The notes under the pieces: generated by a model
Told to the model about the DNA's origin: nothing
What the model saw: only the letters and a program-made list of their open reading frames with translations
The model's database searches: none
Assembly: GCF_000264455.2 (NCBI RefSeq)
Contig: NC_017957.2
Location: forward strand, 434,001 to 498,000
Direction of reading: 5' to 3'
From: Tistrella mobilis KA081020-065
GTDB taxonomy: Bacteria > Pseudomonadota > Alphaproteobacteria > Tistrellales > Tistrellaceae
Length of the DNA: 64,000 nucleotides
Program-made: the position numbers and the translations under genes
Shown: positions 32,971-63,808 of the stretch, piece by piece
Layout: each line of letters starts with the position of its first letter
How positions within the stretch are numbered: position 1 is the stretch's first letter

Positions 32971-33120
32971 ATGATGCAGATGGATAACTTGACTCCGGCC
33001 GTGGAAACGGCTGCGGTCCCTGATCGGGGCGCCTGGACGCGGCCGGTGCTGGAGGTGCTGTCGGCGGGTGAGACGGCGGGCGCTTTCGGCCCCGTATATG
33101 ATGGGAGCGGCCAGTCCTGA
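32971..33120 (+). CDS. RiPP-like precursor peptide 1 (paeninodin-like leader)
   Basis: A 49-residue peptide. The leader carries AWTRPVLEVLSAGETA; the predicted core is GAFGPVYDGSGQS. It has the family features seen in all eight copies in this window: aromatic-x-Arg-Pro-x-Leu, Thr-Ala, an Asp eight residues after the Ala and a final Ser. Here the core starts with Gly, so a Gly1-Asp8 macrolactam would be the classical lasso arrangement. GGAG lies 4 bases before the ATG at 32971 and 7 before a second ATG at 32974, which is probably the true start. First gene of a plus-strand run of precursors. Function inferred, not shown. Confidence 0.68.
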   Translation: MMQMDNLTPAVETAAVPDRGAWTRPVLEVLSAGETAGAFGPVYDGSGQS

Positions 33121-33172
33121 TCGTTTCCGGGACGAGATGATCACTCCCGAAACAACCATAGGAGGCATAGCC

Positions 33173-33316
33173 ATGCGGGATAAAATCGAACGCCATCGTC
33201 GTCGCTTCCGGCCGGCTGCCGGTACCGGCTGGGCGCGGCCCGTGCTGACCGTGGTTCTCTACGAAGAAACCGCGGAGAATCCTGGCGCAGGGGGTGACGG
33301 CTCGGGACGATCCTGA
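33173..33316 (+). CDS. RiPP-like precursor peptide 2
   Basis: A 47-residue peptide with a strongly basic N-terminus (RDKIERHRRRFRP), the leader motif GWARPVLTVVLYEETA and predicted core ENPGAGGDGSGRS. AGGAGG seven bases before the ATG is the best ribosome-binding site of the set. Glu follows the Thr-Ala pair, so an amino-terminal ring would need Glu1, which is unusual. The Asp8 and final Ser are kept. Lies 52 bases after precursor 1. Confidence 0.66.
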   Translation: MRDKIERHRRRFRPAAGTGWARPVLTVVLYEETAENPGAGGDGSGRS

Positions 33317-33447
33317 GATCTCCACCGGCGGGCGTGCAGATGCGGCATCCTCGCGCATAAATCTGGTGTCCGACGTGTTTTGCCTGTTATGGTTGTGGTC
33401 TTTCAGGGGGGCCTTCCGGCCGCCCGGGTGGATAACACGGCCGGCAG

Positions 33448-33612
33448 ATGCAGGATATCGACAGGCAAAAGCCCGCCCCCGGGGTGGCGGCCACGACCGA
33501 CAGGATCAGTCGCCGGCACAAGCGCTGGAGCCGGCCCGTGTTCGACATCCTGTCGCTGAACGACACGGCGATCAGCGGGGCCACGATATCGGACTACTAC
33601 AGCCTGTCCTGA
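33448..33612 (+). CDS. RiPP-like precursor peptide 3
   Basis: A 54-residue peptide and the longest of the family. Leader: KRWSRPVFDILSLNDTA; predicted core: ISGATISDYYSLS. The Leu of the motif is Phe and the usual GSG after Asp8 is YYS, making this the most diverged tail in the tandem group. The basic stretch RISRRHKR precedes the motif. The ATG at 33448 lacks a strong SD, so expression is less certain. Confidence 0.6.
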   Translation: MQDIDRQKPAPGVAATTDRISRRHKRWSRPVFDILSLNDTAISGATISDYYSLS

Positions 33613-33758
33613 TCTGGTCCTGGCCTCTCCACCTGAGGGAGCACAGCTGCAGGTAAATGAACGTGAGCCTGTGGTTGCTGATCAGTGCCTGATGCGGTAT
33701 GACCGAAAAAGATCGGTCGGCATGTGTCGCCGATCGGTCGCCGTTGTACTGGAGCGAG

Positions 33759-33899
33759 ATGATGCAGATGAACGCCAAGCCGGTGACGACCGCCGCTTCA
33801 GTTCGTGGTGTCTGGAGCCGGCCCGAGCTTGAGGTGCTGTCGATCGACGAGACCGCGATCGGTGCTGGCGTCGTGAATGACGGTTCCGGCCAGTCCTGA
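33759..33899 (+). CDS. RiPP-like precursor peptide 4
   Basis: A 46-residue peptide: leader GVWSRPELEVLSIDETA, predicted core IGAGVVNDGSGQS. The start region (GGAGCGAGATGATGCAGATG) is nearly identical to that of precursor 1, which shows a duplication that includes the ribosome-binding site. Longer in-frame starts exist upstream but lack this shared context. The last five residues match precursor 1 exactly while the seven-residue ring-like segment differs. Confidence 0.66.
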   Translation: MMQMNAKPVTTAASVRGVWSRPELEVLSIDETAIGAGVVNDGSGQS

Positions 33900-33954
33900 T
33901 CTCCGTCCCCGATCCATCGGGAAAGATGCCGGGCTGATCGGGGGGACCGCCTGC

Positions 33955-34107
33955 ATGGGCAGCCTGATGGAAGTGTTACGACTTCTGTTCTCGCCGCGCG
34001 CACGGCTGGTGCTGATCCCCTTCGTGCTGGTGCTGCTGCTGTTTGCGGTGGTCCTCGTGGCCACCCAGGGGACCGCCTGGTCGCCTTTCCTGTATGCCGT
34101 GTTCTAG
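33955..34107 (+). CDS. Small membrane protein, DUF5989-like
   Basis: A 50-residue protein: short amphipathic N-terminus (MGSLMEVLRLLFSPRARLVLIP), one long hydrophobic helix (FVLVLLLFAVVLVATQG) and a TAWSPFLYAVF tail. This layout (basic lead-in, hydrophobic span, QG then a hydrophobic/aromatic tail) matches my memory of DUF5989, a family of tiny proteins encoded beside SGNH hydrolases and other polymer- or secondary-metabolite-modifying genes. It lies between precursor 4 and precursor 5 in the same orientation, upstream of an SGNH and an MBOAT gene. Confidence 0.6.
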   Translation: MGSLMEVLRLLFSPRARLVLIPFVLVLLLFAVVLVATQGTAWSPFLYAVF

Positions 34108-34151
34108 GCCGGCAACCCTGTCGAAAACCAATCGGACCCGGAGTTGGGCAT

Positions 34152-34298
34152 ATGCAGGACATGGACATGCAGAAGACCGCGCCGATGGCGACTGACGAGG
34201 ACCGCAAGCTGTGGGGCCGGCCCGTGCTCGCGGTGTCGGCTGCGAACGATACGGCCTTCGCCGTTGCCGGTTCGGATGACGGCTCGGGACTTTCCTGA
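34152..34298 (+). CDS. RiPP-like precursor peptide 5
   Basis: A 48-residue peptide: leader KLWGRPVLAVSAANDTA, predicted core FAVAGSDDGSGLS. GGAG with an eight-base spacer precedes the ATG. The Met-rich start MQDMDMQK resembles precursors 1, 3 and 4. Asp occurs at both positions 7 and 8 of the core. It sits directly before the SGNH hydrolase gene (47 bases), the last precursor of the tandem group. Confidence 0.66.
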   Translation: MQDMDMQKTAPMATDEDRKLWGRPVLAVSAANDTAFAVAGSDDGSGLS

Positions 34299-34345: not shown

Positions 34346-35305
34346 ATGCGTCGCGTGATGCGTGCCCTGGTGCTGGTGCTGGTCGGCATCATCTTCGGCT
34401 GCCTGGCTGGGGAAGGGCTGGTGCGGCTCGGCACCGCCAATCAGAAGAACTACGTCATCGAGATGTGGCGCTATGCAAAGCTGCTGAAGCGCCCGAGCGA
34501 CGACCCCGCCATCGGCCATGAACATGTGCCGGGCGCATCCGCGCGCCTGCAGGGCGTCGAGGTCTCGATCAATTCCCTGGGGCTGCGCGGGCCGGAACCG
34601 GTGCCCGGTCGTCCGGCCGTGGTACTGGCGGGCGACAGCATGACGCTGGGCTGGGGTGTGGCGGAAAGCGGCACGCTGGCCGGTCAGCTTGCCCGCCGGC
34701 TGGGCGACGATGTTCAGGTGGTGAATGCCGGCGTCGGCAACATGACCGTGCCGCAGATCGTGGCCCACTGGCTGGAGATCCGCCGGCGGATCGGCGACGC
34801 CTTTCCGGTGCGGACACTGGTGCTGCTGCCCTCGTCGCGCGCCGGGCTGCCGCAGCCCGCGGGTGATGCCGGCTGGCTGGTGCGCCACAGCGAGCTGGCG
34901 GCGCTGATCGCGACCTTCTGGGCCCAGGCGACCAGCGGCGCCGCCGGCCGCGACGAGATGGTCGCCGCCTATCGCACCGCCTGGACCGGCCCCGAGGGGC
35001 AGGCGCGCATTGCGCAGGCCTTCGACCGGCTGGCCGCCGAAACCCGGGCCGACGGCATCCGGGTGATCGTGGCCCAGATGCCCGACACCAATGATTTCCG
35101 CGACTATGCCTTCGGCTTCGTGACCGGGACCACGGGGCGCGAAGCCGCCGCGCATGGCTGGGACTTCGTCGATCTTTACCCGCTGTTCGCCGGCGAGACG
35201 GCGGCGGACTTCTGGACGATGCCCGGCGACATCCACCCCAATGCCGCGGCCTATGCCCGGATCGCCGACCGGCTGGCGCCGCTGCTCGCCGCGCCGGCCT
35301 CGTGA
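34346..35305 (+). CDS. SGNH/GDSL hydrolase family protein, membrane-anchored
   Basis: A 319-residue protein with an uncleaved signal anchor (about residues 5-22) followed by a periplasmic SGNH domain. Block I is VVLAGDSMTLGWGV (Ser98), block II NAGVGN and block V GDIHPN with His297 as the likely catalytic base. It probably acts as an esterase or acyltransferase on an extracytoplasmic substrate. It lies between the precursor cluster and an MBOAT acyltransferase gene; SGNH plus MBOAT pairs usually O-acylate polymers outside the cytoplasm. Confidence 0.82.
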   Translation: MRRVMRALVLVLVGIIFGCLAGEGLVRLGTANQKNYVIEMWRYAKLLKRPSDDPAIGHEHVPGASARLQGVEVSINSLGLRGPEPVPGRPAVVLAGDSMTLGWGVAESGTLAGQLARRLGDDVQVVNAGVGNMTVPQIVAHWLEIRRRIGDAFPVRTLVLLPSSRAGLPQPAGDAGWLVRHSELAALIATFWAQATSGAAGRDEMVAAYRTAWTGPEGQARIAQAFDRLAAETRADGIRVIVAQMPDTNDFRDYAFGFVTGTTGREAAAHGWDFVDLYPLFAGETAADFWTMPGDIHPNAAAYARIADRLAPLLAAPAS

Positions 35306-35321
35306 CCCCCGGCCAGGCCCC

Positions 35322-36677
35322 ATGCTGTTCCAGCTGCCCAGCTTCTTCGTCTTTCTGGCGGTCTTCGCGGCCGGGCTGGCGCTCTGCCCCCGGCGGCTGG
35401 TGCTGGCCTATGTCTTCACGGCCAGCCTGGTCTTCTATGCCTGGTGGTATCCCCCCTATACCGCGCTGATCCTGGGCTATGTGGCGGCCGCCTGGATCGG
35501 CGGGCGGCTGGTCCGGGCGCATCCGCGGCTGCTGCCGGTGGTGGTGGTGACGGTGCTGCTGCCGCTGCTGCTGTTCAAATACACCGATTTCGTGATGACG
35601 ACGCTGGAAGAGCTGACCGGCGCCGGGCTGCCGCATCTCGGTTGGGGCCTGCCGCTGGGCGTGTCTTTCGTCACCTTTTCGGTGATCAGCCTGCTGGTCG
35701 ATACCGCGCATCACCCGAAACGCCCCTTCCCGCGTTTCGGCATCGTTGCGGTCTATGTCACCTTCTTCCCGCATCTGATCGCCGGGCCGATCCTGCGCCT
35801 GCACAAGATGGTGCCGCGGCTGTCGGATATCCGGATCGATCGGGAGGCGTTCACGGCGAATGCCGGGCTGTTCGCCATCGGTATGATGAAGAAGGTGCTG
35901 ATCGCCGACCCGATCGGGCTGTGGATCGACGGGGTGATCACGGAACCCGGACAGCTGGGCCTCATCGAGGCCTGGTTCGTGATGCTGGGCTTCGCGGTCC
36001 AGATCTATTGCGATTTCAGCGCCTATTCCGATATGGCGATCGGGCTGGCCGGCATGTTCGGCGTGGCCTTCCCCGAGAATTTCCACAAACCCTATGCCGC
36101 GACCTCCATGACCGAGGTCTGGCAGCGCTGGCATATGACCCTCAGCTTCTGGTTGCGGGATTATGTTTATAAATACCTGCGCGAGCCGCTGGGGCGGGTG
36201 CTCGCCATCCTCGGCACCATGGCGGTGTCGGGGCTGTGGCATGGCGCCGCCTGGACCTTCGTGGTCTGGGGGCTGATCCACGGCACGATCATGATGGCGG
36301 AGGCCCTGACCGGCCATGCCGTCAGGGCGCGCCAGTCCCGCGGCCTGGCCCGGGCGGGCTTCATTCTGGCGACCTTCCTGACCTGGGCGGTGGTCACCAC
36401 CTTCTTCCGCGCGCCGACGCTGGAGGTCGCCGCATCGGTGATCGCCGGCGGCTTCGGCGCGCATGGGCCGGGCCTGCTGCCGGCGGATGCCCCGCTGCTG
36501 GCCGGGCTGATCCTGGTGACTCTGGCCCTGCACCCGCTGGATACGATCAACCGCATCCGCAGCGCGACCGCCCGGGTGCCGGCGGCGCTGGCCCTGCCGG
36601 TGATCCTGGTCCTCGTCGCCGGCTGCGCGATGATCGCGGCCGGCCGGCCGCAGGCGTTTTTCTATTTCGACTTCTGA
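35322..36677 (+). CDS. MBOAT family O-acyltransferase (AlgI/DltB-like)
   Basis: A 451-residue polytopic membrane protein of the MBOAT family. Typical features: PHLIAGPILRLHKMVPRL, CDFSAYSDMAIGLAGMFG, PENFHKPYAATSMTEVWQRWHMTLSFWLRDYVY and the catalytic His in VSGLWHGAAWTFVVWGLIHG. AlgI-like members pass acyl groups from the cytoplasm to a periplasmic SGNH partner such as AlgX/AlgJ. The start at 35322 begins the conserved first helix. Its TGA (36675-36677) abuts the stop of the convergent SGNH-like gene with no gap. Confidence 0.93.
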   Translation: MLFQLPSFFVFLAVFAAGLALCPRRLVLAYVFTASLVFYAWWYPPYTALILGYVAAAWIGGRLVRAHPRLLPVVVVTVLLPLLLFKYTDFVMTTLEELTGAGLPHLGWGLPLGVSFVTFSVISLLVDTAHHPKRPFPRFGIVAVYVTFFPHLIAGPILRLHKMVPRLSDIRIDREAFTANAGLFAIGMMKKVLIADPIGLWIDGVITEPGQLGLIEAWFVMLGFAVQIYCDFSAYSDMAIGLAGMFGVAFPENFHKPYAATSMTEVWQRWHMTLSFWLRDYVYKYLREPLGRVLAILGTMAVSGLWHGAAWTFVVWGLIHGTIMMAEALTGHAVRARQSRGLARAGFILATFLTWAVVTTFFRAPTLEVAASVIAGGFGAHGPGLLPADAPLLAGLILVTLALHPLDTINRIRSATARVPAALALPVILVLVAGCAMIAAGRPQAFFYFDF

Positions 36678-38146: not shown

Positions 38147-38290
38147 ATGGACACGCAGATGAATGAAGACGTCGCCGTCGGCCGGCGGCCGGGCGGTATC
38201 TGGTCGCGGCCTGTGCTGGAGGTGATGCCGGCGGCTGAGACCGCAATCGGCATCGCTACCACTCTGGATGGCGGCGCCGGCCTGTCCTGA
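38147..38290 (+). CDS. RiPP-like precursor peptide 6
   Basis: A 47-residue peptide: leader GIWSRPVLEVMPAAETA, predicted core IGIATTLDGGAGLS (one residue longer in the tail than precursors 1-5). GGAG ten bases upstream supports the ATG at 38147. It lies alone between the two minus-strand SGNH paralogues and is the closest precursor to them, which ties these genes to the peptide family. Confidence 0.66.
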   Translation: MDTQMNEDVAVGRRPGGIWSRPVLEVMPAAETAIGIATTLDGGAGLS

Positions 38291-42144: not shown

Positions 42145-42273
42145 ATGAGTGAGCGCGCCGACGAAATCATGCAGCAGCCCGTCTGGCAGCGGCCGGTTCT
42201 GGAGATGATGCCGGCCGAAGACACCGCCAGCTCGTCCGGCGCCGTTGGGGACGGCAGTCTGGGCCTGTCCTGA
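42145..42273 (+). CDS. RiPP-like precursor peptide 7 (solitary)
   Basis: A 42-residue peptide, the shortest of the family: leader PVWQRPVLEMMPAEDTA, predicted core SSSGAVGDGSLGLS. A strong SD (GGGAGGGG, eight-base spacing) and a perfect terminator 28 bases downstream show that this is a real, expressed-looking unit of its own, not a relic. No modification gene is adjacent. Its independent location argues that maturation enzymes act in trans. Confidence 0.7.
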   Translation: MSERADEIMQQPVWQRPVLEMMPAEDTASSSGAVGDGSLGLS

Positions 42274-63658: not shown

Positions 63659-63808
63659 ATGAATACGATTGTCGAAGACAAGGGGATTGAAACGATGGCG
63701 GCCGCCGCCGCGCGGCCGGCCTGGCGCAGCCCGAAGCTGGACATGCTGGATGCGGCAGAGACCCTTGCCGGCTCCGATGGCACCACTGACGGAGGCATCT
63801 TCAGCTGA
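63659..63808 (+). CDS. RiPP-like precursor peptide 8 (solitary)
   Basis: A 49-residue peptide: leader PAWRSPKLDMLDAAETL, predicted core AGSDGTTDGGIFS. It is the most diverged family member (Ser for Arg in the R-P pair, T-L for T-A) and also the closest to the paeninodin-type leader, because LDMLDAAETLAG mirrors LE-x-LD-x3-T-x-A-G. Ala1 and Asp8 would suit a macrolactam. The SD is weak (GGAAAG, 11-base spacing); an internal ATG at codon 13 is possible. Alone, 21 kb from precursor 7. Confidence 0.62.
   Translation: MNTIVEDKGIETMAAAAARPAWRSPKLDMLDAAETLAGSDGTTDGGIFS

Follow-up and report, generated by a model that had tools for sequence, protein, structure and literature searches.

Lasso peptide genes are usually portrayed as compact clusters that include one precursor or a few. 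The leader of a lasso precursor carries an aromatic-x-x-P-x-L motif and a Thr at position -2, and Gly or another small residue is usual, not absolute, at core position 1. Huascopeptin and the xanthomonins are very short lasso peptides of 13–16 residues with Gly1, a ring of 7 and cis clusters. Lasso peptides of the paeninodin type, which come with an HPr-kinase homologue (ThcoK, SyanK and kin), have precursors with the leader layout Y/W-x-x-P-x-L followed by Thr, a layout shared by the leaders analysed here. Outside the lasso peptides, the prochlorosins have many scattered lanthipeptide precursors with a conserved leader and a diverse core, which are thought to share one LanM enzyme. The lasso ring is a macrolactam of 7–9 residues, as stated in PMC5067487, which also reports nanomolar binding for PadeB1. 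The review PMC8498205 reports that linear lasso precursors are phosphorylated at their C-terminal Ser by homologues of HPr kinase, and it mentions a sulfotransferase gene in some Firmicutes clusters.

Eight short genes in the window, that is, the whole analysed stretch of 64 kb (bases 434001–498000 of contig C2; the genome has 6.5 Mb in 5 contigs), resemble these systems in part. We consider it probable that they encode dispersed, diversifying precursors of the lasso clan that are matured in trans.

Eight precursor peptides in the window

The eight ORFs of 42–54 aa all translated from their proposed starts as an earlier note on this DNA had described:

32971..33120, plus strand: precursor peptide 1, 49 aa; predicted leader end TA; core GAFGPVYDGSGQS
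33173..33316, plus strand: precursor peptide 2, 47 aa; core ENPGAGGDGSGRS
33448..33612, plus strand: precursor peptide 3, 54 aa; core ISGATISDYYSLS; without ribosome-binding-site match
33759..33899, plus strand: precursor peptide 4, 46 aa; core IGAGVVNDGSGQS; counterparts in G058 and G001
34152..34298, plus strand: precursor peptide 5, 48 aa; core FAVAGSDDGSGLS
38147..38290, plus strand: precursor peptide 6, 47 aa; core IGIATTLDGGAGLS
42145..42273, plus strand: precursor peptide 7, 42 aa; core SSSGAVGDGSLGLS; counterpart in G058
63659..63808, plus strand: precursor peptide 8, 49 aa, or 37 aa from the ATG at 63695; core AGSDGTTDGGIFS; counterpart in G001

G058 and G001 are genomes of the same species and of the same genus, respectively, and together with the source genome G000 form the Tistrella set used below. 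The earlier note had described clear ribosome-binding sites for most of the genes. GGAG, AGGA or GGGA was found upstream of six of the eight starts at varied spacing, and no such match precedes 33448 or 63659. The true start of peptide 8 may be 63695 rather than 63659.

The leader signature W-x-x-P-x-[LF] followed by Thr, as in the lasso clan, was present in all eight peptides. Its spacing was stricter than previously noted, with Thr 13 residues after Trp and Asp 9 residues after Thr in 8/8, and W, P, T, D and the final S were invariant in the alignment. An acid suited to a macrolactam at core position 7–9 is thus provided by Asp8 in every peptide. The cores have 13–14 residues. Only 5–6 of these follow Asp8, and bulky plugs are mostly missing from this tail. 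It had been described as a short Gly/Ser stretch ending in Ser; the final Ser holds in 8/8, and the Gly/Ser composition is broken in peptide 3 (DYYSLS). Core residue 1 varied (G, E, I, I, F, I, S and A for peptides 1 to 8).

The peptides share with the paeninodin type the final Ser, an HprK-like kinase in the wider system and sub-threshold matches to NF033524 (3/8). They differ from it by Trp in place of Tyr, by Gly1 in only one of eight peptides, by the 13–14-residue core, by the many dispersed copies and by the lack of cis enzyme matches in the window. Their relatives also differ in having a sulfotransferase beside the kinase (70 of 80 loci that were chosen by their sulfotransferase, the best 80 of 482 relatives). 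The core length is comparable to that of huascopeptin and the xanthomonins, which differ by Gly1, a ring of 7 and cis clusters. With the prochlorosins they have in common the large number of dispersed precursors, in which the leader is conserved and the core diverse; prochlorosins are lanthipeptides with LanM, and a relation in sequence is not expected. The statement of the earlier note that no described system has so many scattered copies overlooks this family. Our literature search found no report of many dispersed lasso-type precursors and no paper on lasso peptides together with orphan precursors.

An HMM built from 40 peptides of other bacteria ranked exactly these eight at the top of the 549 window ORFs of at least 30 aa (E-values of 1.3e-8 to 0.0023; next ORF 0.8). 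The foreign peptides came from 43 candidates picked by a pattern that demanded the acid and the final Ser, of which three likely chance ORFs were removed. The same eight also came first with an HMM of 7 same-genome members from outside the window (1.4e-10 to 1.8e-4; next ORF 0.17). Three of the eight peptides matched the NCBIfam model NF033524 at 21.6, 16.4 and 15 bits, all below the cut-off of 27; the best score was that of peptide 4 (33759). The proposed likeness to paeninodin-type precursors is a good lead, as relatives occur in lasso-type clusters, and falls short of an assignment by this model. A Pfam search of the peptides gave no fitting model, the sole match being irrelevant (E 0.027). 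A DNA pattern for the leader was useless for genome-wide searches (118 matches versus 238 for the reversed control), and near-identity DNA searches of plasmid records, in which the own genome is possibly absent, yielded nothing informative.

The position of the acid was evaluated with an HMM of the leader only. This model is blind to the core, and among the profiles used it alone tests the acid fairly; foreign peptides selected for an acid made up 10 of its 27 training rows. Matches were kept if they had a W/Y/F..P motif with a Thr 10–17 residues later and dropped if ≤10 or >31 residues followed the Thr, and members without Thr are outside the denominators. An acid was present at T+9/+10 in 52 of the 55 Tistrella matches (43 at +9), compared to 0–7 of 55 at the other offsets tested (4–8, 11–14), and 53 of the 55 ended in Ser. 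Leaving out the 17 training rows gave 35/38 for the acid and 36/38 for the final Ser. Of the three misses for the acid, L045:9249 arose because the wrong Thr was picked, and L088 probably represents a chance ORF. At foreign loci, the acid was found in 25/31 and the final Ser in 27/31 matches (15/21 and 17/21 without 10 training rows). Gly was residue 1 in 11/55 Tistrella and 8/31 foreign matches. An acid at T+9/+10 corresponds to the geometry of an 8–9-residue macrolactam, as in lasso peptides.

Copies, array and divergence of the family

By our count, the source genome has 27 members, a few of them weak, spread over contigs C1, C2, C3 and C4. Besides the eight in the window, two each are present at L043, L044, L045, L047 and L090 and one each at nine further loci (L046, L049, L050, L051, L053, L054, L182, L183 and L187). 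Matches were weakest for L049, L050 and L183 (E 0.01, 0.95 and 0.026); the final Ser is missing from L049 and L183, and the Thr from these two and from L187. The eight copies listed in the earlier note are therefore too few, even if the weakest of the 27 are doubtful. When one profile was applied to 385 genomes of the class, 13 had a match at E ≤ 0.001: 18 matches in G000, 17 in G058, 15 in G001, 8 in G096 and 1–2 in nine others, all of which are lower bounds as at most 18 candidates were scored per genome. Among the 382 other Alphaproteobacteria, all but one had 0–2 matches. Profile A7 is rich in Tistrella rows, and copy numbers in other genomes may be low estimates. Profile A2 gave marginal matches only in 55 relatives outside the genus, except for G040. 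Homologues in related genomes, on which the earlier note had staked its claim, are present; its term "new family" is too strong, as the peptides are one branch of a clan with lasso-type leaders that occurs in several phyla. In a Chloroflexi MAG (L114 12653–14000), four precursor-like ORFs, two of them overlapping, follow cyclase-like and B2-like genes.

Peptides 1 to 5 form an array, which lies between a GntR gene and GDSL/MBOAT genes in all three Tistrella genomes. The array comprises five copies in the window, five in G058 by pattern (six profile matches in the same stretch) and three in G001. In G058, two successive pairs with the same two leader types are 873 bp apart and 76% identical without gaps, which suggests tandem duplication. 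Two genes follow the array:

34346..35305, plus strand: GDSL-like hydrolase, start 47 bp after peptide 5, at an identical distance in G058
35154..36677, plus strand: MBOAT O-acyltransferase, position after the array kept in G001 and G058

The GDSL-like hydrolase is a possible co-transcribed tailoring gene. The true start of the MBOAT gene is probably later than the listed 35154. A role of MBOAT as tailoring enzyme was considered and dropped, since synteny in three Tistrella genomes and one foreign cluster is too little to claim it. That cluster, in an Owenweeksia MAG (L143 12353–13774), has an MBOAT gene directly after a precursor among kinase, sulfotransferase, PqqD and cyclase genes, as after the window array; it was the only one of the 80 sulfotransferase loci (best 80 of 482 relatives) with MBOAT. 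At the locus of peptide 8 (63659), G001 and G058 have another precursor with a tail-collar gene triplet.

Leaders and cores of hand-picked ortholog pairs diverged differently. For 10 pairs with G058, amino acid identity was 0.88 and dN/dS 0.35 in the leader versus 0.53 and 1.06 in the core; for 7 pairs with G001, the values were 0.80 and 0.56 versus 0.60 and 0.95. Window peptides in these pairs were four of the eight with G058 and two with G001, five different ones overall. The G058 counterpart of peptide 2 (33173) kept 31/33 leader and 6/13 core residues, that of peptide 5 (34152) 25/34 and 4/13. Since core dS was raised too (0.42 vs. 0.18), cores may have been replaced or misaligned rather than positively selected. 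Our claim is therefore that the cores are unconstrained apart from the fixed residues, positive selection being unproven. The leader rates point to purifying selection in the tested pairs, so that the substitution-rate check proposed earlier came out in favour of the genes. Profiles, the difference between leader and core rates and the geometry together support a RiPP-like precursor family with conserved leader and variable core, as originally suggested.

Enzyme and collar genes in the genome and in related clusters

Queries for kinase, sulfotransferase, PqqD, cyclase and collar genes gave no match in the 64-kb window, and the B1, B2 and C genes that mark a lasso-clan cluster were not found together there. 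With no enzyme gene found in the window, processing in trans would be the simplest reading. The genome has 10 PqqD matches, 13 matches to PF00733 (including asparagine synthetase-like ones and pieces of single genes), a single B2 match (Transglut_core3, C3:654729, L048 9188–9712) among unrelated genes, and at least five kinases (five candidates were scored), three of which adjoin a sulfotransferase. Of the features of a kinase-tailored lasso peptide, the C-terminal Ser is present in 8/8 window peptides, and the candidate kinases are encoded elsewhere in the genome. The lone B2-like gene has a histidine kinase, a repA gene and an isopropylmalate-synthase-like gene in its vicinity, and G001 and G058 each yielded a single B2 match as well.

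Same-genome members at L044 and L045 (two peptides each) adjoin an HprK-like kinase and a sulfotransferase; others adjoin asparagine-synthase-like, PqqD, JmjC or 2OG-oxygenase genes. One cyclase, two PqqD proteins and three kinases of G000 were compared to NCBIfam, and all scored under the cut-offs. The best model for the L047 cyclase was the lasso isopeptide cyclase NF033535 (231 bits; cut-off 525), and both PqqD proteins scored best with the lasso PqqD model NF033536. There is also a likeness to the HprK-related kinase A/PqqD_rel_X system, as the three kinases weakly matched TIGR04352 and TIGR04355 and one PqqD weakly matched TIGR04353, all at scores far below cut-off. Kinase profile A6 matched HPr kinase structures by sequence (best E 3.4e-8). 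The locus at C2:7.7–8.4 kb of G000 has two peptides as neighbours; in G058, their counterparts enclose a third precursor together with two oxygenase-like genes and one cyclase-like gene, and these cyclase-like and oxygenase-like genes are absent from the locus in G000. It follows that orphan precursors and a cyclase-bearing cluster can be alternative forms of the same locus.

We scanned genome contigs with the sulfotransferase only and examined the best 80 of 482 relatives, some of which are nearly identical (L100, L101), using a home-made codon-score script as gene caller. A kinase was present in 75 of the 80 loci, in 70 of them with its end ≤400 bp from the sulfotransferase start. PqqD was found in 56, a cyclase-like gene in 54 and a B2-like gene in 41 (by a B2 profile that rests on 4 sequences), and the leader HMM at its threshold detected a precursor in only 24 of the 80. 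PF13471 (B2) was present in 26 of the 28 genomes carrying 30 examined loci. Judged from gene content, the sulfotransferase is part of a putative lasso-type cluster in most of these 80 loci, in several phyla. A further protein family (A4, 3 rows) adjoins lasso-type cyclases at L047 8054–9028, L051 8113–9144 and L053 8863–9897. Its RCGSTL motif looks like that of a second sulfotransferase type; the L047 member had no Pfam match and the profile no PDB relative. A Rhodospirillaceae MAG (L133) has eight tandem sulfotransferase-family genes.

A phage-tail-collar gene was present in 18 of the same 80 loci (best 80 of 482), in 14 of them in three or more copies. The recurrent cluster consists of PqqD, kinase, sulfotransferase, three collar genes, GNAT, precursor and cyclase, with varying order and strand and parts sometimes missing (L089, L095, L111, L113, L115, L129, L141, L149, L153, L155, L156, L160, L201, L252 and L253). 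Three tandem PF07484 genes, often with GNAT, are found at L089 6317–8036, L113 12599–14383, L160 10318–12060, L225 10007–11658 and others. PF07484 was present in 20 of 22 genomes searched, most of which had been chosen for having such a sulfotransferase locus. Nine genomes (G040, G390, G396, G399, G400, G401, G402, G408 and G410) have exactly three PF07484 genes, located together, and in all but G402 the trio is at the kinase-sulfotransferase locus. Against a strict link, no collar gene was found in G389 and G403 or in 62 of the 80 loci. With these profiles, the collar groups of G000 had a precursor at L054 only, not at L242 or L243, and the collar loci L245, L246, L247, L251, L257 and L259 had none. 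Our literature search found no paper joining the tail collar domain and lasso peptides and, for tail collars together with RiPPs, one paper on a phage genome. In G385, the genome of the Novispirillum itersonii locus L092, twelve collar genes surround a trio of kinase, sulfotransferase and PqqD (L249).

Proposed maturation and alternative readings

In the proposed maturation, the leader motif W-x-x-P-x-[LF] would be recognized by a B1 protein of the PqqD type. Cleavage after T-x would be carried out by a transglutaminase-like B2 protease, and the N-terminus thus freed would be linked to Asp8 by a C enzyme resembling asparagine synthase. The C-terminal Ser or other hydroxyls would be modified by an HprK-like kinase, sometimes together with a sulfotransferase. 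These enzymes would come from elsewhere in the genome, where there are 10 PqqD matches, several cyclases of the lasso type, five or more kinases, three kinase-sulfotransferase pairs and one B2. The array would grow by tandem duplication, with cores diversifying and leader, Thr, Asp8 and final Ser fixed, and would act as a peptide library read by shared enzymes. The threaded fold and the modifications are predicted features, and the function would perhaps be competition or self-recognition. Several observations speak against this reading: the window without enzyme matches, Gly1 in one of eight cores only, the short tails mostly lacking bulky plugs, the scores of peptides and enzymes under the NCBIfam cut-offs, a precursor in only 24 of the 80 sulfotransferase loci, and weaker members that have lost the Thr or the final Ser.

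Precursors of the same clan may also lead to a non-lasso product, either an unthreaded macrolactam or a linear Ser-phosphorylated or -sulfated peptide, with kinase and sulfotransferase as the working pair. L044 and L045, where the kinase and sulfotransferase stand beside the peptides, have no PF00733 cyclase match, the pair is kept with peptides in G001 and G058, and the short tails and the variable residue 1 fit such a product. However, it leaves the acid at T+9/+10 in 52/55 matches unexplained, as no ring would be closed, and foreign peptides with Leu1 or Asn1 (L153, L160) occur in clusters with cyclase-like, PqqD and B2-like genes. We regard a non-lasso product as possible and clearly less likely than a lasso-type one.

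It is improbable that the window array is a relic, namely orphan precursors drifting after loss of a cis cluster. The lack of enzyme matches in the window, a core dN/dS near 1, the lack in G000 of the cyclase-like gene that G058 has at C2:7.7 kb, and a G001 copy at the C4:942 kb locus (L085:8410) without acid and final Ser would all be expected of decay; they stand against purifying selection on leaders in the tested pairs, Thr, Asp and Ser kept in 8/8, and an array that lies between the same neighbours in three genomes and is duplicated in G058. Chance ORFs or short coding artefacts, of which 68% GC DNA offers many, are hardly credible given the independent profiles, the conservation in related genomes and the fixed spacing.

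The reading as lasso-clan precursors matured in trans can be extended, tentatively, to a prochlorosin-like library. About 27 scattered, fast-diversifying lasso-type cores per genome would be processed in trans by one detached B2 protease and by cyclases, kinases, sulfotransferases and oxygenases that can stand in for one another. They might work with the collar triplets, e.g., as ligands that a structure resembling a tail fibre displays or releases in competition or kin recognition.

The constant pair of kinase and sulfotransferase, for which our literature search found no assignment, points to a tailoring step, and the recurrent collar triplets suggest a biological partner for the peptides. 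The precursors seem to be uncoupled from their enzymes and to multiply and diversify alone, which would make natural combinatorial lasso biosynthesis directly testable.
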